A program made the position numbers and the translations under genes. This document shows, in pieces, positions 36,546 through 62,400 of a stretch of 64,000 nt of DNA. Positions within the stretch are counted from its first letter, which is position 1, and each line of letters begins with the position of its first letter. The notes under the pieces were generated by a model that searched no databases, was not told the origin of the DNA, and was given only the letters and a program-made list of their open reading frames with translations. Source of the stretch: Chaetoderma sp. LZ-2023a (Eukaryota; Mollusca; Caudofoveata; Chaetodermatida; Chaetodermatidae); contig CM067371.1 in NCBI GenBank assembly GCA_034401795.1, positions 83,207,306 through 83,271,305 on the forward strand, read 5' to 3'.

Positions 36546-37261
36546 TCCATTCAGAAAGATGCCTCTAAAACCTTTGACAGGCAAAATTCAGTACAAATGT
36601 GTCATCTATGGTAGTTGCATTATATAGATCATTGGGGGCCGGATGATACATTTGTTTTTTGCTTCCGGGGGTGGGGGGGGGGCATTTGGGGGTCGAAATT
36701 AGATCATGACCATCCATTGTCCAGCAGCATTCGTCAACAATAGTATCACGTCTCGCCATGTGTTGATGGTTTACAACAAAATTTGGCAAATATGTCCCTA
36801 GTGATATTATTTATTAGAAGGATGAAAATTATGTGAATACATTCTTTAAAAAAATAGAGTTATGGCCCTAGCATATTTACGGTGTATTGAAACATATGGG
36901 AAATTCAATTGTGGCCCATCTTATTGTTCAATATATTAATTCGACACATTGTGAGATTGTTGATATTAGCAATATGTATCACATTGCCGAGAATCGGGTT
37001 AAATTGTTACCATGTTATAGAGTTAAATCCCCTTATATTAGGTATTGATGTCTATGGAAACAATTCGGAAAGGATAATAGTCTTGAGATGTCTTGACATA
37101 TTTGCACAAAACTTGGTGGGTGACAAAATCTGAACCCAGGTTACCAGCTCTCTAGAGAATAGGTCAGTTTGACCTAGTTTCTGGAAAATATAAGCCAAAG
37201 GTATATTTAATTCCCATTGAAACCAATAGTAATTTAACCATATATTACTTTTGTCAAACCT

Positions 37262-37299
<38 letters not shown>

Positions 37300-38690
37300 G
37301 ACCTAATTTATATCTGGGTGTTTGGCATCCAACGGTGCCAAGTTGGGTCAAAATGTATATAGAAATAAACAAATTAATTTCCTTTTTCCATTTTTTCAAT
37401 GACCTCAATAGGCCTACTCCAAGTAACTAAGGGGAGGTAACGTTGTAATATATCGAAAATTTAACACGAAAAACATATTGTCAATAACAACAATCTCCCA
37501 AAGTTTACAAATATTACATTGAAGAATAAGAAAACGAGCCACATAGGATCCAATACTTTAAAACTCCATATGTTTCAGTACAGCGAAAATGTGCGAGTGT
37601 CGTAACTATTTTTTAGGATGTATGAACTCCATGTTCATCCATCTAATAGATAATACCACTAGGGACATATTTGCCAAGTTTAGTTTTAAACCATCAAGAA
37701 ATGGCGAGACCTGCTACTATTTTTGACGAACGATACTAGACCTAATTTCGATCTCAAATGTTTGTTGGGGCAAAAACAAAGGTGTCATTCAACCTATTGA
37801 TGTTCCCAGTGACCATACAGGGTGTCATATTGTACTGTACTTTGCCCTGCCACTGTCACATTTTTGGATTCTGCCACTCCACTATTACTCTAAATGAAAA
37901 TTATTTTTTTTCTGTGTCTTAGACATCGGCTAAAATGACTGCATCTCAAGTGCAAAGTAAATCATTTTCGATGAAATTTTGTCCGTGCACCGTTATGAAG
38001 GGTAACCTGATTCAAGGCACACGGCCGAGGTAAAAACGCCCAACCCTTCTAAAACAACTCAAGTGCGCCAATTATTTCCATCTTTGTTCAACTAATGGAT
38101 TATCTCCCTGTGCAATAAGCTCACATCCAACCGAAGCCTGTGTAGTGACCCCACCCCACCCGCACACACGATTCGCCCCCACCCCCACGCACGCAATCAC
38201 GCACGCACGCACACACCGCCCTGCCTGCCTGTCTGTCTGGCCTCACGATATCTTCGGAGTCCACTAAAAATCACTAAATTTGTCCCATCCATTCATGTTA
38301 TAGGTGGCTAGCAATTCTATGAGATTCATGTCAAAGTATCAAATATCTAGGCCACATGGTCACAAGATACACCACGCGGTGGTGTGTTGTAAGGTAAAAC
38401 GCATTTGCACGAGATTTTGAAATAATCTTTTCACAATATGTCTTTCTGAGACCTAGACGGTTTAATGTCATGTATTGGTTTTGATTTCTTATCGGTATCT
38501 TAACCGTATCTACTTGTTTCTATAACAACACAAAATTGGGGAGAATTTTGTGCCTCGACATTCCATCGTGACATCGACATTTAACTTCTGTACTTGAGAT
38601 CCAGACACAGATAATGATTTCGTCATGTGGATACATATTTTAAAAAAGACATCGTTTGTAATAACAAAGACAGATTAATAGGCATTGGTA
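36546..38690. other. Stretch without recognised gene; short microsatellites
   Basis: Contains (ATT)n at 37264-37299 and CA/CG-rich runs at 38155-38230 (GCACGCACGCACACACC). Segments near 36560-36790 and 37620-37760 share phrases (ACTAGGGACATATTTGCCAA in both senses), so a dispersed repeat is present in two inverted copies. No coding domain seen. Confidence 0.45.
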
Positions 38691-38695
38691 TGTCT

Positions 38696-39290
38696 GATTA
38701 CTGTATTCTGCGGCTGTAGTAGTAGTAGAAACATCCTACAGATGCAATCAGTCCTTCTTCGCTTTTGCCCACTGTGCCTTGTCCTCAGCCGAAATCCTTA
38801 GCTTCCTCAAGTCCATTCTTGACTTGAGTGTACCGACTTTTACAGACAGTGGCAATGTACTGCACATCTTGTATAGTACATTGTTGGAAATTGTGCTGTC
38901 TGGTCATCGGTGTCCAGTGTTGGTGCGTAGGTGTTTGCGGTGGAGGCATCGAGTTTGTCTAGAGCTGTCTTTGGAGCTTCCCAACTGTTACAGTTATACA
39001 GCATCAAGGATACGCAGGTTGCATTGTATAAACGTAGCCTCTTTATCAAGGGCATCTTTGATCTACGAATCCATAGCTTCCAGAAGGACTGGAAAGCTGT
39101 TCCCCATGACGCAGCATGCAGAAATGTCAGCAGTACTGCAAAGCAGTGAGCCCAGGATTTAATTTTTCCTCCATGGTTCGCCGCCATGAAGTGGGTCGTG
39201 ATTTTCTATAGTTTCATGCTTTATCGATAGGTATATGTGGGTGAACTATGTTTTGGATTCATTCATAAAGAGATTCTCAATTTTTTTGTA
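38696..39290 (-). pseudogene. RTE-like LINE, 3' fragment (same family as 640-4915)
   Basis: On the minus strand, MAANHGGKIKSWAHCFAVLL and ATCVSLMLYNCNSWEAPKTA match MAANHGGKVKSWAHCFAVLL and ISLMLYNCNSWAAPKAALDK of the element at 4200-4560. The untranslated end TAGGATGTTTCTACTACTAC is also shared. The fragment covers the last 600 bases only, with frameshifts, and is in the opposite orientation to the first copy. Confidence 0.8.
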
Positions 39291-39299
39291 TGTGATATG

Positions 39300-40216
39300 T
39301 ATATACCACCAGAATCCTCCAAATATTACTTAAACGTAGCGTTTGGCAAAATTGAACAGGACTTTCTAACTCTTAACAGTAAGTATGAAATAGTCTACTT
39401 AGTTTGAGATTTTAATGCAAAAACTGAATCACAGCGTGACTGAAATTTATGATAAATCCAGCAGTTTAGAGAAGACGATTGGGCAAATGAAAAACTTCAA
39501 AAATAGTCATTCAATGGATTCCTTATAGAAAGACGCAGCCAATGCCAAGCACTACTGAACGGCAATGGTCGAAAGTTATTGCAGCTATGCAAAAATCTTT
39601 GCACATTTCTTTTAAATAGCAGCCTAGGTAAAGACGCAGTAATGGGCAAAGCGACTTGTAGACATGGAACTGTATTAAATTATCTAATAGTGAATAGGAA
39701 ATTTATTGAAATAGTAAAAGGATTTGAGATATACGACTATGATCCGCTAATTTCAGACATACAACCAGCCATGGTTCGGCAAAGAATGTTCCGAGAAACG
39801 CCAACTATACCATATATTCTCAACAAAACTGAAAACAACTATCAGGGACTTAAAGCAGCTAGCAACCAATAAAAAAAACCAGAGCAGTTCGGCAGTACTC
39901 GCAAGACATGCGACACCAATTACACACCAAGCTATGCAACCTACGCAAAACGGACACAAAATCATTTTGGAAGTTAATTAACAGTAAACACAAGAAAACC
40001 GTTGATACACACACATTGAGATTGATAAGCTCTTTGAATATTATAAGTCAGTTTATAGAAACAGACGACATAAGCCCTGAAATTGAAATCCGGAACTGTA
40101 AGGAACTCGGTGTACCTATCATACAAAACGAAATTGCTGAAGAAATCAAACGTTTGAAACAAGGAAAGGCGGTGGGACTTGACCAATTAAGTAATGGATA
40201 TATTAAAGCTATATAG
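39300..40216 (+). pseudogene. Second LINE type: endonuclease and RT N-terminal fragments
   Basis: Frames on the plus strand give YMPPESSKYY (39300) and a QDFLTLNSKYEIVYLV-DFNAKT segment (39358), matching the GDFNA region of LINE endonucleases. RHGTVLNYLIVNRKF (39660) and, at 39970-40210, FWKLINSKHKK and IKRLKQGKAVGLDQLSNGYI follow; the latter is the RT start motif (LK.GKA.G.D.I.NE). The order endonuclease-linker-RT is kept but catalytic boxes of the palm are absent. It ends abruptly near 40216. Confidence 0.65.
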
Positions 40217-40580
40217 ACGTAATGATTCATATCTATGAAAAACTCTAACTTAATCTTAGACAATGAACGGGAGGCGGATTACGGTGGAGAGTGCGTGGTC
40301 GATCCTGCCGCGGTGAGGGCTGTCATTCCTCATATGTCGGTGGTGCAACTGGCTGACAGTTGTGGTATGTTGCGTGACTGATGTACCGGCGGAATGGTGC
40401 TGCCGATTCCTCCCGATGACTCCGCAATGTTCATCGCGAATATAGGATTTCGCTAGACAGGGCCGGTGCGGGAGGTTGTCTATGTAATGGATTATCACCC
40501 GGCCATACTGTCTCCGTAGATGACACGGGTGAATGATAGTAGTCTGAAGGAGTGTATATATGCCCGTAATCGGGTCTTTG

Positions 40581-41051
40581 TCAGAGTCGTCCACGATTCG
40601 GCCCTAGTGGTGTTGGCCTGTCGCGGACGTCCGAGATGGTTCTAAATTCTGTTCCCGCCTGTGAGGCATCCCGAAAGGTGCCATCGCTAACAGGCGAAAA
40701 CAGATGATAGTGCGGAGTTGTTGACTCCACAGAATTTCTGGCACAGTCGGTGAGCATATGTGCTGAAAATCCATCGTATGAGGCTACCTCTTGATCGAGG
40801 GAGTCCTCGCTGAATGGAGATGGGATTGAACTGAGCTCACTATATGGTGTGGGCGTGAGTTCGCTACGTGTTATTACTGTTGTTCTTTGGGCCCCACATC
40901 GGACACCCCTTGTAGCTCGCCAGGTAGTGTCAGGCCGTTCTGATGTCTCTTGTCGACTCGCCATGCCGCATGTGCACAACGAATGATGCCACTGGTTAGC
41001 ATCTGGTCTCGGGGTGACGGACCTTGAACGAGACTTCCCTGCGGGAAACAA
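40581..41051 (-). other. Minus-strand open frame, Ser/Pro-rich (alternative frame)
   Basis: A 156-codon open frame overlapping the module gene at 40874-41251 in another frame. It is rich in Ser, Pro and Thr (SELSSIPSPFSEDSLDQ). Beyond its TGA stop the same frame continues with Pro/Tyr-rich sequence (YSPSDYYHSPVSS and, past another TGA, PPTYEE) down to about 40320. It could be a frameshifted C-terminal region of the same gene, because a run of seven T sits between the two frames near 41062. No homology is recognised. Confidence 0.35.
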
Positions 41052-41251
41052 AAACGGGAAACAAAAAAACGGCTCCTAAGGCCGGTGTAACTCAATCGTT
41101 CCAGTGGGGCCATGCGACCATTGCCGTGAACATTAAACATAACAGTATCATCCCAAGAATTTGTGTCACCAGTCTGCCTGTCCATAGCAATTTCGTGATC
41201 TATGGACTTACAAGATTTGATTTGGTGACATAAAAATATAAGTCTATACAA
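40874..41251 (-). CDS. Unrecognised module, copy 1, downstream ORF
   Basis: A 125-codon open frame on the minus strand. Residues 25-52 include TGDTN, TVMFN, GNGRM and APLER. They align with the downstream ORF of copy 2 (44235-44522), where the same positions read TGDTN, TVWFN, GNSRM and PPLKR: 17 of 28 residues are identical and two more are Asp/Glu swaps. Many nucleotide differences fall at third codon positions, as expected of a protein-coding relation. Similarity continues weakly afterwards (SLVQG..PRDQMLTSG versus SVQSG..ARDLLLTG). A repeated CGGGAAACAAAAA motif inserts about 14 residues. I recognise no known family and assign no function. Confidence 0.5.
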   Translation of the reverse strand: MYRLIFLCHQIKSCKSIDHEIAMDRQTGDTNSWDDTVMFNVHGNGRMAPLERLSYTGLRSRFFVSRFCFPQGSLVQGPSPRDQMLTSGIIRCAHAAWRVDKRHQNGLTLPGELQGVSDVGPKEQQ

Positions 41252-41332
41252 TGCGTTTACCTAAAATATGCTAGATAAAACTACAATAAGAACATACGAA
41301 AATATAAGACATGCAGGCAGGTAGATGAACTT

Positions 41333-41623
41333 TTAAACATGGGGCTCCCGGAGGTACCACACAGACTCATAGGTCCGCAGAGGTATCCCCGCAAGGGAGG
41401 CTCCCATACACGAGACATAGCTATTTAACTTAATATGAGTTATTATACCTCTAGGCTGGAAGGAAGAAGAATATCTCAGACGAAAAGTGATGTGCCTCAC
41501 GCGGGCACTACTCCTAGTGCAATTTTGGGTGAGGAGTATTATCCTGGCGTGGACCGTCATCGCTGACTCCTTGCGAGAGGCAAGTGCCTCGCGCAGGCCT
41601 CCATCTCGGGAAGGTGCTGCCAT
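41333..41623 (-). CDS. Unrecognised module, copy 1, upstream ORF
   Basis: A 96-codon open frame on the minus strand, 81 bases upstream of the previous ORF and in the same direction. Its C-terminal third (IKLNSYVSCMGASLAGIPLR then WYLREPH) aligns with the frame 43803-44144 of copy 2 (ILN-LSNRARVLLCGDTPQ then VPLARAT). The DNA alignment is clearest around TTGCGGGGATACC and GTGTGGTACCTC. The function is unknown. A basic N-terminal half is the only other visible property. Confidence 0.4.
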   Translation of the reverse strand: MAAPSRDGGLREALASRKESAMTVHARIILLTQNCTRSSARVRHITFRLRYSSSFQPRGIITHIKLNSYVSCMGASLAGIPLRTYESVWYLREPHV

Positions 41624-41862
41624 AGCTTAAAGCGGGAGAAGAATAGCAGTAAAAAACAGGCCTACTCTAATATTTCAAACAAAAATGCTATACAAAGAAA
41701 AGACCATACCTAGTGAAATTATGACTGTAGGGGTGCGTACTGTTTTACGTGAAGACGGGACAGAAGTGTCCCGATGGATTCCTTCATCCCCGTCTTATGT
41801 ACTTCTAATATGCTGAGTTAGCAGTTGCTGTTTTATTTCTGCGGGCCTTCTGCTTTGCTTAA

Positions 41863-42057
41863 TTCCTTTTAGTTGTTTTCAAGACAAGAATTAGTTTGGG
41901 GCCGCAACTGGCCGATAACTACCTAGCTATTAGATATGGCGGTCACGGAGAACCGATGCCCGAGGACATCCGTACTGCAGACAGCGCTCTTACATGTTAC
42001 TTAGCGGGATCTCCGAACTGGGTGGGAATCCGGACATTCCACGCCGCAACCACATGA
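41863..42057 (+). other. Unassigned open frame in the island
   Basis: 64 codons without an early ATG. The frame reads LGPQLADNYLAIRYGGHGEP, then SALTCYLAGSPNWVGIRTFH. The residue mix is protein-like, and TTCCTTTTAG just upstream could be a splice acceptor. No family recognised; it may be an exon or a chance frame. Confidence 0.25.
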
Positions 42058-42915
42058 AACATTACAAGACATGGTTTACATTTCACGGAAGCATTATTAG
42101 GCCATATCGCCTATCGTTATGGTGGGGGTTGAGAGAGACGGATGCACACCGTGGATGTCCTTCCCGTAAGGGCGTGGCAGATCTAAATATCTTGCCCAGA
42201 CATTCGAACAGAATTCGGTGAGCATACATATCTCGCCCGTCACGTCACCGGGTCCTATGGAACTAACCATTTAACCTGTCATTAGGTTTATACACAAGTT
42301 GCCAGTTTTGCACTGCGGTGCGGGAGGATTGTCAGTAAAACAGAATAATAATTAATACATATGTTTTTGCAGTGCTTTCCTACATTGGCTTGAGGTACTA
42401 TCTACTAAGTATCCGAAGATACGCGGGTGTGTGTGATACCGCACCCTAGCCATCACCGCTCGGAAACCCCAATAGTTTCCCAGAGTCGGATCAGCCCATG
42501 GTGCAGATAGGGACATCCAAACAATTAAGAAGCCACAAGGCTAAGAGGAACATGAAAAGAGACAAAATCTGCGAGTTATGAGTCTTACCGGAGTGCTGGG
42601 CTAAATTATCGCACTACCGGAAGAGAAGACTATTACACAGTATGTAATGATGAAAGTGTCTCTAATCATTCTGAACCTATCCTATCGAGCTGAATAGAAA
42701 AGGTTTTAGGCGGTAGCATGCCGGGCTAAACAGAGTTGTAGCACGAACAGTGATCTCAGTGAAAAATTGTTGGTGGCGGGAGAAAGTGCTGCATATATAA
42801 ATGTTGCTGTATAGTGGTTTCTACGTGCACTGCAGTCCTATATTTTTATAACTAAACAAAACGAGTTAACGGATGGCCACTGGCCATATACATACATAAT
42901 CTAACCAGATAAACA
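42058..42915. other. Island interior without assignable gene
   Basis: Moderate GC, few repeats. One 46-codon frame near 42556-42700 (KSASYESYRSAGLNYRTTGR onward) is open but unsupported. Confidence 0.3.
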
Positions 42916-42920
42916 ATACG

Positions 42921-43127
42921 GTGTCAAATGATTATGGTGCATATTTTAGTAGAGGTCTACGAACCTACTATAGTGCGGTTAGCAACGCACTGCGGAAAAA
43001 TGATAATAACTATTTAACAAATACAGAAATTATAACTATCGGTCCTAAGACCGTTGCAGTTCCTTTTAGTCATCGGAACCATTATTACGGATATGAGATA
43101 ATTAACAAAACCTATATAGAGAAATAA
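42921..43127 (+). other. Unassigned 68-codon open frame
   Basis: Starts with GTG, not ATG (an in-frame AAT ACG precedes). The peptide is rich in Tyr and Asn (SNDYGAYFSRGLRTYYSAVS, then NHYYGYEIINKTY). No known family is recognised. Confidence 0.25.
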
Positions 43128-43202
43128 TTAAACTCTGAAGTATAGTTACTTGAATACTGGGTAGCCATTCCCAAGTAAGGCTATGGTGTTACCGAAATTG
43201 AT

Positions 43203-43783
43203 ATGTCACTCCATACGCGACGTGAGATGATGCGCTCTCCGGAAGCTGGAAAGTTCCCGCAGGCTGGTTCCCGCGAGCTGTTGTCCACAACCAAGATTCC
43301 CGCAAGAATGTCCATGGTGGGGAAATCATCGCTCAGCACTGTAAGCCTATTCAGAATGTCTAATGATCAGTCAGTAAAAGATACGATAGTACTACGAGGT
43401 GAAGAAAGTTCCCGTACACCGATGGTATGGATGGAAAGTGTAAACAACCTGATCACTAGCGGGGGTTGTCAAATGCGGATGAAGATACAAAACAAAGCGT
43501 CACAGTGCTGGGTATGTCAACCAGCTCTGAAGACGGGCCGGGCAGAGTTTACTTGCTACGGTCGAAAGTCAAAGGACCTATACGACAGGTGCGGCGGCGT
43601 TTGAAATACCACTTTTTAGGTGTGGCCGGCAGATCCGGCGAGTCATCCATCAAAGAACATCCTGCCTCTACATCTGTAGATTCACATTATCAGGCCGCAA
43701 AGGCCTCACCGCAAGTTTGTGTTCCGAATGTAGATATTGTATTCGTGAACGCTTTATCAAAGGTTTCTAAACTACTCCCGTAA
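43203..43783 (+). other. Two overlapping unassigned open frames
   Basis: 43203-43604 (133 codons, MSLHTRREMMRSPEAGKF) and 43466-43783 (105 codons, MSNADEDTKQSVTVLG) overlap in different frames. The second includes a basic stretch (LLRSKVKGPIRQVRRRLKYH). They lie directly upstream of module copy 2 on the same strand and could be parts of one frameshifted gene. No homology is recognised. Confidence 0.3.
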
Positions 43784-43802
43784 AAGTTACAAAATTGATT
43801 TA

Positions 43803-44144
43803 GTGCGGTGGGTTGGAAACTGTACTCTACGGGATAAAAACCCGACCCATAGCGAAGAAAGACGTGTGTCGCGCTTGATAATAGTTGGTACCGCTCCAAC
43901 CTGTTCGGCCACTGGCCGAGGATGCTCTCGATCTCTGGATCGCTTCTCCTTTTATACTCTCCGTGAGGTCACAGGCGCAGGCTTCGTCCAATCATCGCTC
44001 AATCAACAGTTACAGTTTATATTAAACTAGCTAAGTAACCGCGCTAGGGTCCTCCTTTGCGGTGATACCCCACAGATTTCATTCCATGAGGTACCTCTGG
44101 CGAGGGCCACGATTATGAGTCATCAATCCGGCTCCATGTACTAG
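43803..44144 (+). pseudogene. Unrecognised module, copy 2, upstream ORF (one in-frame TAG)
   Basis: Open from 43803 to a TAG at 44028-44030 and, in the same frame, on to a TAG at 44142-44144. The part around and after the first TAG aligns with the C-terminal third of the copy 1 upstream ORF (41333-41623), which has Ser where this copy has TAG. The spacing to the next ORF (90 bases) is similar to copy 1. Function unknown. Confidence 0.35.
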
Positions 44145-44234
44145 ACCTCTCAGGTGGCAGCAAACGAGTACAATTGTTTGACTGCACCACATTAATTATT
44201 GTGTGTATTTTTAACTTTATTTCCCGGCTGAAAA

Positions 44235-44522
44235 ATGGAGCCATGGAACCGTCACACCGGTGACACCAACGGCGTGGAGGAGACAGTGTGGTTCAACTTT
44301 GGCGGCAATAGTCGCATGCCCCCACTCAAACGTGAACGTTCCACCGGCTCTCAGTAGGTTTCTGTACAATCAGGTGGCGCCCGAGATCTGCTGCTAACCG
44401 GCTTTCCTGCCCCACTGCACCACGCACCTGCAGTGCAGCGGAACGGGTACATCCGGTGGACCAACGCATACACCCAGCAGCTACATTCTGGTGACCTCAT
44501 AGAAATGCATGCACTGTGGTAA
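44235..44522 (+). pseudogene. Unrecognised module, copy 2, downstream ORF (one in-frame TAG)
   Basis: An ATG at 44235, immediately preceded by an in-frame TGA (44229-44231), opens a 95-codon frame ending at TAA (44520-44522), interrupted once by TAG at 44355-44357. Residues 6-33 align with residues 25-52 of the copy 1 protein (TGDTN, TVWFN, GNSRM, PPLKR). After the TAG the frame continues with similarity (SVQSGGARDLLLTG). It may yield a 40-residue product, or be decayed, or the TAG may fall in a small intron (TAGGTTTCTGTACAATCAG). A poly(A) signal follows 26 bases downstream. Confidence 0.45.
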
Positions 44523-44547
44523 AAAAATTGCATTGCAATTTGTTCCA

Positions 44548-44553
44548 AATAAA
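44548..44553 (+). promoter_or_regulatory. AATAAA poly(A) signal candidate
   Basis: AATAAA lies 26 bases after the stop of the module copy 2 downstream ORF. Position and strand fit a transcript ending here. Confidence 0.4.
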
Positions 44554-44639
44554 CCGTTCATTTTGCCCGGACTATAAGCCAAATCACCCGAAAATCACCA
44601 TACATTAATAGCTACATAGTTATATAGTCCTCTTCTGCT

Positions 44640-46465
44640 TGCTAGGCTATGCAGCCTGTAGCAGGTCTTCACTATCTTCATTGGCGGCTGGATCCTGTAC
44701 CTGTTGAACTGGTATGTTGGTGTCGACAGGCATGATCGGGGAATCTATCGTGTATGTGGCCTCACTGTAGTGTCTGTCTAACCTTGCCTTGAATGAGTTG
44801 ATGGACGGAACCGTCACTACTGACTCTGGTAGATTGTTCCAGTGGTTAGATGCTCTAACAGTGAAAAAATTCTTTCTGGTGTCTGTGTTGAAACGTTGTT
44901 TCTGCACTTTGAAGCTGTGACCTCTTGTCCTGTCGCCTTTGTCAAGTGGTGGAGTGGCGTTATGGTCTACGTTGTACACATCATGTAGATATTTGGACAT
45001 TTCTATTAGGTCACCCCGTAGACGTCTGTACACTAGGCTTGGCAGTTTGAGTGATTTGAGACGCGCTTGGTATGGCATTTGCGTGAGTCCTGGAACAGAT
45101 TTCGTGGCTTGACGTTGAACATTTTCCAGTAGTTGGATGTCTTTCTTGTAGAAGGGGGACCAAACGGCATTGCCATATTCTAAGCGTGGTCGGACTAGGC
45201 TCTTATACAACAGGACAAATGTACCAGGATTTATGTAGTCAAATGATCGTCTAATCAGGCCAACTAATCTGTTGGCCTTATTGACTGCCTTTTCTGCATG
45301 CTGGTTGAATTTTAGACAATTGTCTACGTACACTCCTAGGTCCTTCTCACATACGGTCTCCTCGAGTACAACTAGCTGGTCACTTTCCTGCATGCTGTAT
45401 TGGAACTTATCGTTAGATCTGCCTAGGTGCATAACTTTGCATTTAGTTGCATTAAAACGGAGCTGCCATTTATGTGGCCACTCTTTAAAGCTATTCAAGT
45501 CTTTTTGGAGCGCATCATGGTCAGTTCTGGAGTTAACTCGTGTGAACAGCTTGGTGCCATCTGCAGAGCTTGATCATGCTTTCTACTACTCATGGCATGT
45601 CATTAATGAAGCAGATGAAAAGTACTGGTCCAAGCACGCTGCCCTGTGGAATTCCGCTTAACACTGGAGTCCAATTGGAGCAAGATCCACTGATGGATAC
45701 TCGCTGCTTTCTGTTGCTTAGGAATGCGGCCTGTATCCATCCTAAAGTGTCGCCACTAATTCCATAGCTGTGGAGTTTGCTCAGTAGTCTTTGGTGTGGA
45801 ACAGTGTCATACGTTTTAGCGAAATCAAGGTAGATGACATCAACTGCATCACCGTTGTCAACAGCTTTAGTACAGTAATCTAGCATGTCTATGAGCTGTG
45901 TGATGCAGGACCGGCCATTTAAGAAACCATGTTGGTGGTCTGACATGAAGCTGGACATATACTTTGTTAGTGCGTCTTGGATGAAATATTCCATAATTTT
46001 GCATACTACTGATGTTAAGCTACTGGTCTGTAATTGCCTGCTGATGATTTAATTGCTATACCTTTCTTGAAGATTGGTGTGTCTTGTGGGAGCGTTCTTT
46101 CAGTGAGGGACGGTTAAATAGTATTGTCAGTGGTTTGGCAATGAAATGGCTGATCTCATTTAGAATTCTTGGTCAGTGGTGAGATTTCGTCTGGTCCTTG
46201 GGAGTTTGACACTGCAAGTTTCTCAAGTCTTTTTTTTTTGCACATCAGTTTCTATGATTCTGATTTGGTCCAATGGGTTGTTAGTTAAGTTACTGGCAAG
46301 CTGTGGTATACTACTGGTGTCCTCGCGCGTAAATACCCTTGTGAAGTATGTGTTCAGTTCTTCTGCCTTCTCTGTGTCAGTTATTGCTGTTGTGCCATTG
46401 GCTCTTGCGAGGTCTGCAACCCCAGTCTTTGTCTTTAGTTTGGATCTTATTATGTTATGTTAAAG
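44640..46465 (-). mobile_element. CR1-like LINE, 3' half
   Basis: A 5'-truncated non-LTR element on the minus strand. Linker and RT N-terminal pieces lie at 46000-46465, the RT core at 45590-45994, and the thumb and C-terminal domain at 44647-45498. The 3' end is near 44640. It sits directly beside the unassigned island. Confidence 0.8.
44647..45994 (-). pseudogene. CR1-like LINE reverse transcriptase (frameshifted, active site changed)
   Basis: The core frame (45994 down to 45590) contains HGFLNGRSCITQL, VIYLDFAKTYDTVPH, a turn with SGIPQGSVLGPVLF and INDMP, the usual RT motifs of CR1/Rex1/Jockey elements. The palm box lies in the break between the two frames and reads SADGTKLF instead of (Y/F)ADDTKLF. 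The second frame (45498 down to 44647, 283 codons) reads WQLRFNATKCKVMHLG, ARLEYGNAVWSPF-like RPRLEYGNAVWSPF, TRGHSFKVQKQRF and NHWNNLPESVV. One frameshift near 45500-45590 separates them. It is non-functional as it stands. Confidence 0.85.
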
Positions 46466-46978
46466 ACTCTAACTAGGCATTAATTAATTTAATCTTACTC
46501 ACTCAGAGTGTGTTGTTGTATTTAAGACTTTTAATGTTATATAGACATTTTGAAGAACCGTTCGCGCCATACAGAATAGGGGCGAGTCCATCGTGGCTGG
46601 ATTTCCATATGCATACAGATACAGAATAGGTGAAATACCCTAAAAATTTGATACGCTAACGAAAACATCCGAATCCATACGAAAATATCCGAATTATAAA
46701 CCGGGTACTAGTCTGTCAATTCTGTTTATTTTCTGTTAGAAGGTCATCTTTGTAAGTTCATTGGTCAATATATCTATAATTATGTTACTAGCCAATGAAA
46801 CAGCAATAAATTTCTTCCAGCTGATAGAGGAATTAAAGCCAGATCTCCAAATCGAATAAACTAGTAATCCGTCAAGAATAATGCCAAAAAAGTGTAGTTA
46901 GGTAATGAATTTACTTCCTAGTCTAATAAGATGTAAGGTAGATATTTAGAGGAGAATGTATAGGAAGAGACCGTGAAA
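46466..46978. other. Intergenic sequence ahead of a possible gene start
   Basis: AT-rich; no repeat or domain recognised. It may hold the promoter of the exon at 46979, but no convincing TATA or initiator is seen. Confidence 0.3.
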
Positions 46979-47083
46979 ATGTCGACTACACTTGAACAAC
47001 AACTACAGAAGTTTATCAAGCATGCAGAAAGTTTAAATGAGAAAGACGATAGCGACCAAAATGGTTACCAACTGGAATACCAG
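46979..47083 (+). CDS. Possible first coding exon of a host gene
   Basis: An ATG in fair context (GTGAAAATGTCG) opens 35 codons ending exactly at a strong splice donor, CAG|GTAAAC (47084). The peptide MSTTLEQQLQKFIKHAESLN followed by EKDDSDQNG is hydrophilic and acidic with a probable short helix, as at the start of many cytosolic proteins. The frame closes soon after the donor, so it makes sense only as an exon with a phase-0 junction. No downstream exon was recognised in the window; a (TA)n run and a LINE piece follow. I cannot name the gene. Confidence 0.4.
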
Positions 47084-47363
47084 GTAAACACTTATTAACC
47101 TTTTAATTATCTTAAAAAAAATATACACTAGATTAAGATTGTAGACATATCCAACTAATATATTAGGAAATGTTGTGTGCAATATTGCTGTAATTTGCAT
47201 TTCTGGACGGGGCAGGGGTTATGTGCCTGTCTAGTGTCTAGATAATATTATATACGTCGGGGTATCTCTAATTGAGTATCCTGTGTATAGGTTATGCATG
47301 GATGATGGGGAATGGGTTTAGTGCCTATCACAAAAATATAAATTTTGATACATACTGGCCTAG

Positions 47364-47367
<4 letters not shown>

Positions 47368-47440
<73 letters not shown>
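47368..47440. repeat. (TA)n microsatellite
   Basis: About 73 bases of TA dinucleotides; an open frame crossing it (47272-47571) is not a gene. Confidence 0.95.
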
Positions 47441-47443
<3 letters not shown>

Positions 47444-47618
47444 TAGTCAAGGAACTTGGCGCTATCTCTGGATCACCGATAGCTTGCGGAAGTTATACAT
47501 GTGTGCAGCATATTATGTACAGTTGCTTGTATAGGATCGTCTGTCGACCAGTTGTATATATCTCCTGTTAACGGAAATCTGTACAGTTATATTTGCATAT
47601 ATTTATAACCGTTCTGAC

Positions 47619-47903
47619 ATGGAGCAGAACATAAAGGTATTGCCTGCGTTCTGTAATATTTTTAACTTTAACTTTAGACATGATTGTAGACAGTTAAGAG
47701 AAAATCTTATAACTAGGGGTCATAGTCTAAAGTTATACAAAGCGAGAGCGAGACTCGACTTGCAAAAATACTCTTTCAAACATCGAGTTATAAGCTTATG
47801 GTATAGCATTGTATTTACAAAAAGGGATTTAACGGTGACCCTAGCAACTATAGACAAATCAGCCTTACATGATGTATCCGTGTGTAAAGTTTTAGAGCTT
47901 TAA
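47619..47903 (+). pseudogene. LINE C-terminal fragment (CR1/Rex1-like)
   Basis: 94 codons on the plus strand. LITRGHSLKLYKARARLDLQ, KYSFKHRVISLWYSIV matches the C-terminal signature TRGHS.KL..., then F..R....WN.LP of CR1-like LINE proteins, as in the element at 44640-46465 (TRGHSFKVQ... NHWNNLP). The WN position reads WY. It is an isolated 3' fragment with no RT core nearby. Confidence 0.65.
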
Positions 47904-48004
47904 TATGAGATACGAGACAGTTGCGCTGTACTGGAACAAATTGTGTGTGAAACCATACCAATCTAACTAGCATGTATGTGTATGGTCAGGGTACCTGTTT
48001 CTAA

Positions 48005-61389: not shown

Positions 61390-62400
61390 GTCTTCACAGC
61401 TGCATAGATCAGTAAAATTACAACAAGACAATTTTGATGAATTTCAGTCTTTCAAGGGAGTTAACTGGTGAATATGGGCAGATTTTGCCGAAACGAAATT
61501 GTGACACTTCGTCTATCACTAAAACATCTGCTGATCAAAGAATTGTGAGTGTAGGTTCAAACACTTCGAGATATGGCTCTGACAAGAAAGTTTTTACAAA
61601 TTTTAGCTTTTGAAGGGAGATAACTCTGGAAAATCTGGGCGGATTTTGCCGAAACAAAATCATGACACTTCGTCTATCCCTAACACATCTGCTGAAAGAA
61701 AAATTGTAAGTGTATGTTCAAAACTGTTCGAGATCTACTTCGGACAAGACAAATTTTAGCTCTTCAAGGGAGATAACTCTGGCAAATAAGTGCAGATTTT
61801 GCCGATACAAAATCATGACACTTTGTCCATCCCTAACACATCTGAAATAAAATTGTGAGTGTAAGTACAAAACTCGTCTAAATACGCCTCGGACAAAATA
61901 ATTTTGATTAATTTTAGCTTTTCAGGGGAGATAACTCAGGCAAATATGGGTGGATTTTACTTAAACGAAATCATTGCAATTCGTCTATCCCTAACACATC
62001 TGCTGAAAAGAAATTGTGAGTGTAGGTTCAAAACTGTTCGAGATCTACTTCGGACAAGACAAATTTTAGCTCTTCAAGGGAGATAACTCTGGCAAATAAG
62101 TGCAGATTTTGCCGATACAAAATCATGACACTTTGTCCATCCCTAACACATCTGAAATAAAATTGTGAGTGTAAGTACAAAACTCGTCTAAATACGCCTC
62201 GGACAAAATAATTTTGATTAATTTTAGCTTTTCAGGGGAGATAACTCAGGCAAATATGGGTGGATTTTACTTAAACGAAATCATTGCAATTCGTCTATCC
62301 CTAACACATCTGCTGAAAAGAAATTGTGAGTGTAGGTTCAAAACTGTTCGCGATCTGCTCCGGACAAGAAATCGGACGGACAGATGCACGGATGGATGCT
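61390..62400. repeat. 155-bp tandem repeat with a recent 310-bp duplication
   Basis: About six imperfect units carry AAGGGAGATAACTC(T/A)GGCAAAT, CATGACACTT(C/T)GTC and TCCCTAACACATCTG. Bases 61731-62040 and 62041-62350 are almost identical at a 310-bp period. Duplicate open frames at 61904 and 62214 are a by-product. It ends with the GGACGGACAGATGCACGG motif (62374). Confidence 0.85.

Follow-up and report, generated by a model that had tools for sequence, protein, structure and literature searches.

Two decayed Ty3/gypsy-type retrotransposon pieces joined head to head in a Chaetoderma genome, with a probable gag start inside giant long terminal repeats

Introduction

A window of 64,000 nucleotides from the caudofoveate mollusc Chaetoderma sp. 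LZ-2023a (GenBank assembly GCA_034401795.1, contig CM067371.1, positions 83,207,306 to 83,271,305) contains two short open reading frames (ORFs) that lie on opposite strands and encode a shared peptide. A preliminary description of this locus, made from the letters alone, saw in it an inverted pair of two-ORF modules pointing away from each other, and it proposed either a divergent gene pair or the arms of an undescribed element. What, then, are these frames? Comparison with the rest of the genome indicates that window positions 40263-44485 are two decayed, inverted pieces of two related families, A and B, of Ty3/gypsy-type long terminal repeat (LTR) retrotransposons. The peptide that they share looks like the beginning of a Gag polyprotein whose start lies inside the LTR. 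To this reading as a whole, that is, head-to-head decayed A and B pieces with giant LTRs and a gag ORF that starts within them, we assign a probability of roughly 0.86.

Results

Two repeat families with LTR ends

Both halves of the locus recur in the genome (2.44 Gb, 2753 contigs). The query 44217-44545 gave 2574 first-look candidates, and all 40 that were scored matched, the window itself among them. With the query 41640-43800, 40 of 11767 candidates were scored and, the window excluded, full-length matches reached 93% identity. The expectation that further genomic copies with defined ends might be found was borne out for both stretches, and both are mobile DNA.

Across twenty 10-kb loci, family B is a repeat of ~3.33 kb with the common ends TGTAG (left) and CTACA (right) and frequent internal deletions. 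The corresponding family-A repeat measures 3.55-3.68 kb in the five copies without a large deletion and has the same TGTAG...CTACA ends. A primer-binding site (PBS) follows the right end in L017, L018, L019 and L023 of family B and in L035 of family A, while a purine tract precedes the left end in L010 and L015 (family B) and in L031, L036, L039 and L040 (family A). Because of its common ends, the PBS after the right end and the purine tract before the left end, we read the family-B repeat unit as an LTR. Both flanks were readable for nine LTRs, and five of these (L011, L030, L033, L037 and L038) show an exact 4-bp target-site duplication when inspected by eye.

The 21-nt complement of the PBS was traced through a 23-mer that contains it. 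This 23-mer occurs exactly 64 times in the genome, and its reversed control does not occur at all. A single tandem array (C1:39533977-39585196) accounts for 54 of the copies, all on one strand and mostly ~460-472 bp apart or at multiples of that distance; we take the array to consist of tRNA genes, probably of the Lys type. There are no tRNA genes in the window.

Local alignments between the LTRs of the two families are mostly 56-62% identical, and mean divergence is 0.45 over 3160 shared columns. The most conserved 150-column bin (window 41846-41697, minus strand) has a divergence of 0.33 compared to that mean and is non-coding by our scan; promoter elements could lie there.

For family A, matches to the internal-region start and to the LTR are separated by ~10 kb on C11 and C12 and by ~12.4 kb on C13, judging by match coordinates. 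If each of these pairs is a single element, a full family-A element would measure ~17 kb or more.

Layout of the window

The window copies were assigned as follows.

40263-40910, minus strand: family-A PBS followed by the beginning of the internal region, which breaks off at 40263 (nearly all genome matches stop near query base 647, which is window 40263).
40885-40908, minus strand: degenerate tRNA primer-binding site immediately following the LTR end (18 of 24 bases agree with the family-B PBS; same position in L035, L017, L018, L019 and L023).
40911-44009, minus strand: family-A LTR, ~490 bp short at its 5' end (3099 bp aligned with 11 other copies; missing part measured against L041).
40911-41185, minus strand: putative LTR-encoded gag-type ORF start of family A, frame broken in the window copy (ATG at 41185-41183; ATG in 12 of 12 A copies).
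40581-41051, minus strand: ORF that continues the putative polyprotein collinearly over the LTR end and PBS (aligned in 152 columns with residues 54-194 of the L023 ORF at 38% identity, E = 2e-16).
44010-44014, no strand: junction of the A and B pieces, each truncated at its 5' side (A matches stop at 44009; B matches start at 44011 or 44015 in most copies).
44015-44485, plus strand: last ~470 bp of a family-B LTR of ~3.33 kb full length (77-83% identical to each of the nine B LTRs it was compared with; CTACA end as in other copies).
44235-44357, plus strand: putative LTR-encoded gag-type ORF start of family B, with a stop after 40 codons in the window copy (from translation; block compared in 17 B copies).

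Taken together, the minus-strand part (40263-44009) is a truncated family-A element: 3.1 kb of a ~3.55-kb LTR are followed by the PBS and by the first part of the internal region. Besides the window itself, the internal-region query 40263-40910 gave 39 scored matches with 88-93% identity (40 scored of 2705 candidates).

The inverted placement of the two halves and the similarity of their proteins are what a divergent host gene pair, or the two arms of one undescribed element, would offer. Such an origin is nevertheless highly improbable, as the halves belong to two repeat families that have separate copies and separate ends elsewhere, and the frames of both are broken in the window. In addition, of the 11 other A copies examined, 10 have an LTR that runs on past the position of the window junction, and the eleventh, L036, which aligns only from 43835, differs upstream. 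Since LTR A is unbroken at this point in 10 of 11 copies, the junction in the window is a local rearrangement. The two window copies, both dead, would have been joined head to head through a deletion, a nested insertion or another rearrangement. A direct look for terminal inverted arms of one element found just ten short inverted pairs, none of which links the element ends.

Much of the proposed two-module layout dissolves in this arrangement. The modules are the 3' parts of LTRs from two families that are ~60% identical, both without their 5' parts, and the 2.2 kb of unassigned spacer is the remainder of LTR A. The plus-strand frame 44235-44522 is not one ORF, as it meets a stop after 40 codons (44235-44357). 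Similarly, the frame described upstream of it at 43803-44144 contains a stop ending at 44030, and what is left (43803-44030) straddles the junction of the two elements (44009/44015). Nor are the upstream frames conserved between the families, and a second gene there was rejected: 41333-41623 is open throughout in three of nine A copies (L031, L035 and the window), whereas all eight B copies examined have a stop before 25 codons are read.

An ORF that crosses the LTR end and the PBS

The shared peptide fared better. The frame 40874-41251 on the minus strand is indeed open, and it runs past the LTR end (40911) into the PBS. The peptide TGDTN..TV.FN..GN.RM..PL.R recurs on the plus strand, from an ATG at 44235. 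The similarity between the two is real, but the reported 17 of 28 identical residues should be 16 of 28 counted from TGDTN, or 17 of 30 counted from two residues earlier. At the DNA level the stretches that encode it are 70% identical over 111 bp (E = 4e-5 when the 64-kb window is searched).

We located the TGDTN block in 12 A and 17 B copies. An ATG stands directly ahead of it in all 12 A copies and in 15 of the 17 B copies (all except L015 and L020). This ATG sits ~250-275 nt before the LTR end, and the ORF continues from it in frame over the LTR end and the PBS. In the best copy, L023, 248 codons are open from the ATG through the PBS; the LTR ends after codon 91, so that ~91 residues are LTR-encoded. 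From the block to the LTR end the common frame is open in seven B copies (L009, L018, L020, L022, L023, L024 and L028) and three A copies (L030, L031 and L034). The LTR end is reached in another frame in five B copies (L010, L013, L014, L019 and L021) and two A copies (L035 and the window), and the frame stops before the LTR end in five B and seven A copies.

A genome search with the 248-residue L023 ORF gave 25923 candidates, of which 150 were scored; the counts that follow refer to the 150 matches listed, and three more were unlisted. Residues 81-101, which correspond to the LTR end and the PBS, are spanned by 146 matches, and 106 begin no later than residue 12 and extend at least to residue 150. 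Fifteen matches contain no stop, including the query itself and an apparent duplicated pair on C14, and some of the stop-free matches are only 47-56% identical. Open frames at the matching places vary widely in length and reach up to 533 codons. The window fits the same pattern: its frame 40874-41251 aligns to residues 5-44 of the L023 ORF (68% identity over 40 residues) and its frame 40581-41051 is collinear with residues 54-194. The frame of the window A copy is broken between these two collinear parts, which is why they had appeared as unconnected frames.

Does this ORF belong to gag? Farther on in L023 lies another ORF that we read as capsid-like, although it has no Pfam match; it is in the same phase as the 248-codon ORF, with two in-frame stops between them. 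The 248-residue ORF has no Pfam match above the cut-off and none in PDB, and the label gag therefore rests on position and phase. One alternative is that the LTR ORF is a small gene in its own right. The sag gene of mouse mammary tumour virus (MMTV) is a precedent for an independent small gene in an LTR, and both the two stops in L023 and the widely differing open-frame lengths of the genome matches would be in keeping with it. However, a self-contained LTR gene accounts poorly for matches that extend well beyond the PBS (from residue 12 or earlier to at least residue 150 in 106 of the 150), for the shared phase of the capsid-like ORF, and for open frames of up to 533 codons. We consider this alternative unlikely. 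We favor the start of gag, in which case transcription would begin within the LTR upstream of the ATG, and U5 and the PBS would be translated by ribosomes as part of gag. The coding part would then be copied into both LTRs at every round of reverse transcription.

Selection at the codon level

To the preliminary description, an excess of differences at third codon positions pointed to an ancestral protein. This holds between the families, where net divergence is 0.21, 0.17 and 0.30 at codon positions 1, 2 and 3, and the ratio of nonsynonymous to synonymous differences (pN/pS) over 35 codons is 0.51. These data support a protein-coding ancestor common to both stretches. After Jukes-Cantor correction the between-family ratio is 0.37, and the net value is 0.41. 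Within families it is 0.81 (A; bootstrap range 0.44-1.51) and 0.91 (B; 0.55-1.67), as expected for dead copies.

In the five other frames of the block the between-family pN/pS is 0.65-1.11. We also scanned the LTR alignment in 528 segments, with the A copy of the window excluded. The median ratio was 0.92, and the three lowest values, 0.44-0.48, all fell in the gag-type frame. The strongest three-phase signal of the scan, at 41334, was not counted as coding: it lies upstream of the ATG, and A and B are not convincingly alignable there.

It could be argued that the block owes its conservation to a role as DNA or RNA, for instance as U5, a packaging structure or a promoter element, that it looks coding by chance, and that gag begins after the PBS as usual. 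Functional RNA is to be expected near the PBS, and the block lies there; with 35 codons the statistics carry little weight by themselves, and the frame is broken in most copies. On the other hand, conservation of DNA or RNA would not explain one frame over the LTR end and PBS in 146 of the 150 matches listed, some of them stop-free at 47-56% identity, nor a between-family pN/pS of 0.51 in the gag-type frame against 0.65-1.11 in the other five. We regard this explanation as improbable. For the gag start within the LTR, the codon evidence taken alone is modest, and the stronger argument is that diverged copies keep the frame over the LTR end and PBS.

A search of Rfam, tried for the hairpin-rich look of the region, gave (E up to 5) two weak matches in 37000-48000; they score below the gathering score and lie outside the region, and a structured RNA element was not retained.

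Relationship to Ty3/gypsy

The assignment of the element comes from sequence downstream of LTR B and from a related locus, L044. Downstream of LTR B, pieces resembling protease (E = 0.0026) and RNase H occur in L019. In L017 an integrase piece matches PDB entries (E = 3e-8), and an Integrase_p58_C match exceeds the cut-off. In L044, RVT_1, RT_RNaseH, H2C2 and rve are all above the cut-off, on one strand and in this order, which is the Ty3/gypsy pol order; the top PDB match of this pol piece is Ty3 Gag-Pol (E = 4.5e-30). The placement uses pol order, which includes the reverse transcriptase (RT), and PDB ranking. In NCBIfam, the integrase part gives only transposase matches below the cut-off. 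The original impression that no known family is matched stands for the peptide at the thresholds used (Pfam, NCBIfam, PDB) and falls for the element, which is of the Ty3/gypsy type.

Observations that weigh against the proposed reading

A number of results count against the reading that we favor. With regard to the LTRs, target-site duplications are missing in L021 and L028 (two of the nine with readable flanks) and carry one mismatch in L012 and L022 (two of nine). The ORF is broken in most copies, since only seven of the 17 B copies and three of the 12 A copies keep the common frame open to the LTR end, and its 248-residue version has no Pfam match above the cut-off (best E 0.18) and none in PDB. 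The codon statistics are also imperfect: the between-family pN/pS in the true frame has a bootstrap range of 0.29-0.95, one alternative frame of the block is as low as 0.65, and antisense frame 0 contains 0.10 stops per copy, below the 0.21 of the true frame. In the LTR scan the fourth-lowest value, 0.49, lies outside the gag-type frame and comes with 1.6 stops per copy; the next values are at 0.52. As for pol, the protease and RNase H pieces of L019 and the core integrase piece of L017 score below the Pfam curated cut-off (RNase H just below). The L044 stretch shows no LTR, and its tie to these elements is the RNase H piece of L019, to which it is 76% identical. Finally, the pol link was read for LTR B only; family A would be tied in through the PBS, purine tract and ORF start that it has in common with B.

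Sequences adjoining the pair

Fragments of long interspersed nuclear elements (LINEs) adjoin the LTR pair on the minus strand, at window 44647-45498 (a long open frame with no Pfam match) and 45590-45994 (an RVT_1 match, E = 3.4e-16). The plus-strand ORF 39908-40216 stops a short way to the left of the retrotransposon piece and by eye looks like the beginning of a non-LTR RT domain; its sole Pfam match, PA28_C, is below the cut-off. Among ten window ORFs searched against Pfam, only the flanking LINE RT scored above the cut-off, and the PA28_C match lay below it. A tandem array occupies window 61430-62372, with a unit of ~158-161 bp in ~6 copies, or of 310 bp in three copies at 90%.

Discussion

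The elements described here resemble animal Ty3/gypsy elements (Metaviridae) in their LTR ends, PBS, purine tract, 4-bp target duplications and RT-RNase H-integrase order. They are unlike them in LTRs of 3.3-3.6 kb and in an ORF that would start inside the LTR. Ty1 of yeast belongs to the copia superfamily and has a short LTR, in which its GAG ORF begins. In Ty1 the PBS is located within the GAG ORF (PMC4974528), and a PBS inside a gag-type ORF is what the Chaetoderma elements share with it; they differ in superfamily, in their ~91 LTR-encoded residues and in their 3.3-kb LTR.

LTRs are usually 100-500 bp long (PMC6238403). Far longer ones are found in the Ogre elements of plants (1.9-6.5 kb), and the Burro elements of planarians are present in thousands of copies (PMC6431247). 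By description, Ogre and Burro are like the present elements in being giant and gypsy-type, our own size of ~17 kb being an estimate from match coordinates. Unlike the present elements, they are not credited with an ORF start in the LTR in the passages of that source used here. Precedents thus exist separately for long LTRs and for a PBS inside gag, and their combination in a Ty3/gypsy-type element is an unusual variant. In the literature searched, the coverage of which is partial, we recognised no description of a gag start inside a Ty3/gypsy LTR.

With this reading, what looked like a pair of orphan proteins becomes a probable gag start carried in LTRs. Gypsy-type elements with giant LTRs look very numerous in this genome, with 2574 to 25923 unscored first-look candidates per search. 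Such LTRs would escape the search range of 80-1500 bp that is given for a survey of molluscs (PMC6238403).

If it is true that gag starts in the LTR, then U5 and the PBS would be constrained by coding and by replication at once, and solo LTRs would be possible sources of chimeric proteins. It could be speculated, as a tentative extension that we hold doubtful, that every LTR, solo ones included, carries a start codon and ~91 gag codons, probably behind a promoter. Dispersed LTRs might then serve as portable start modules, joining the N-terminus of Gag to whatever sequence follows, and the N-terminal part may perhaps be a domain of its own that selection has kept in the giant LTR.

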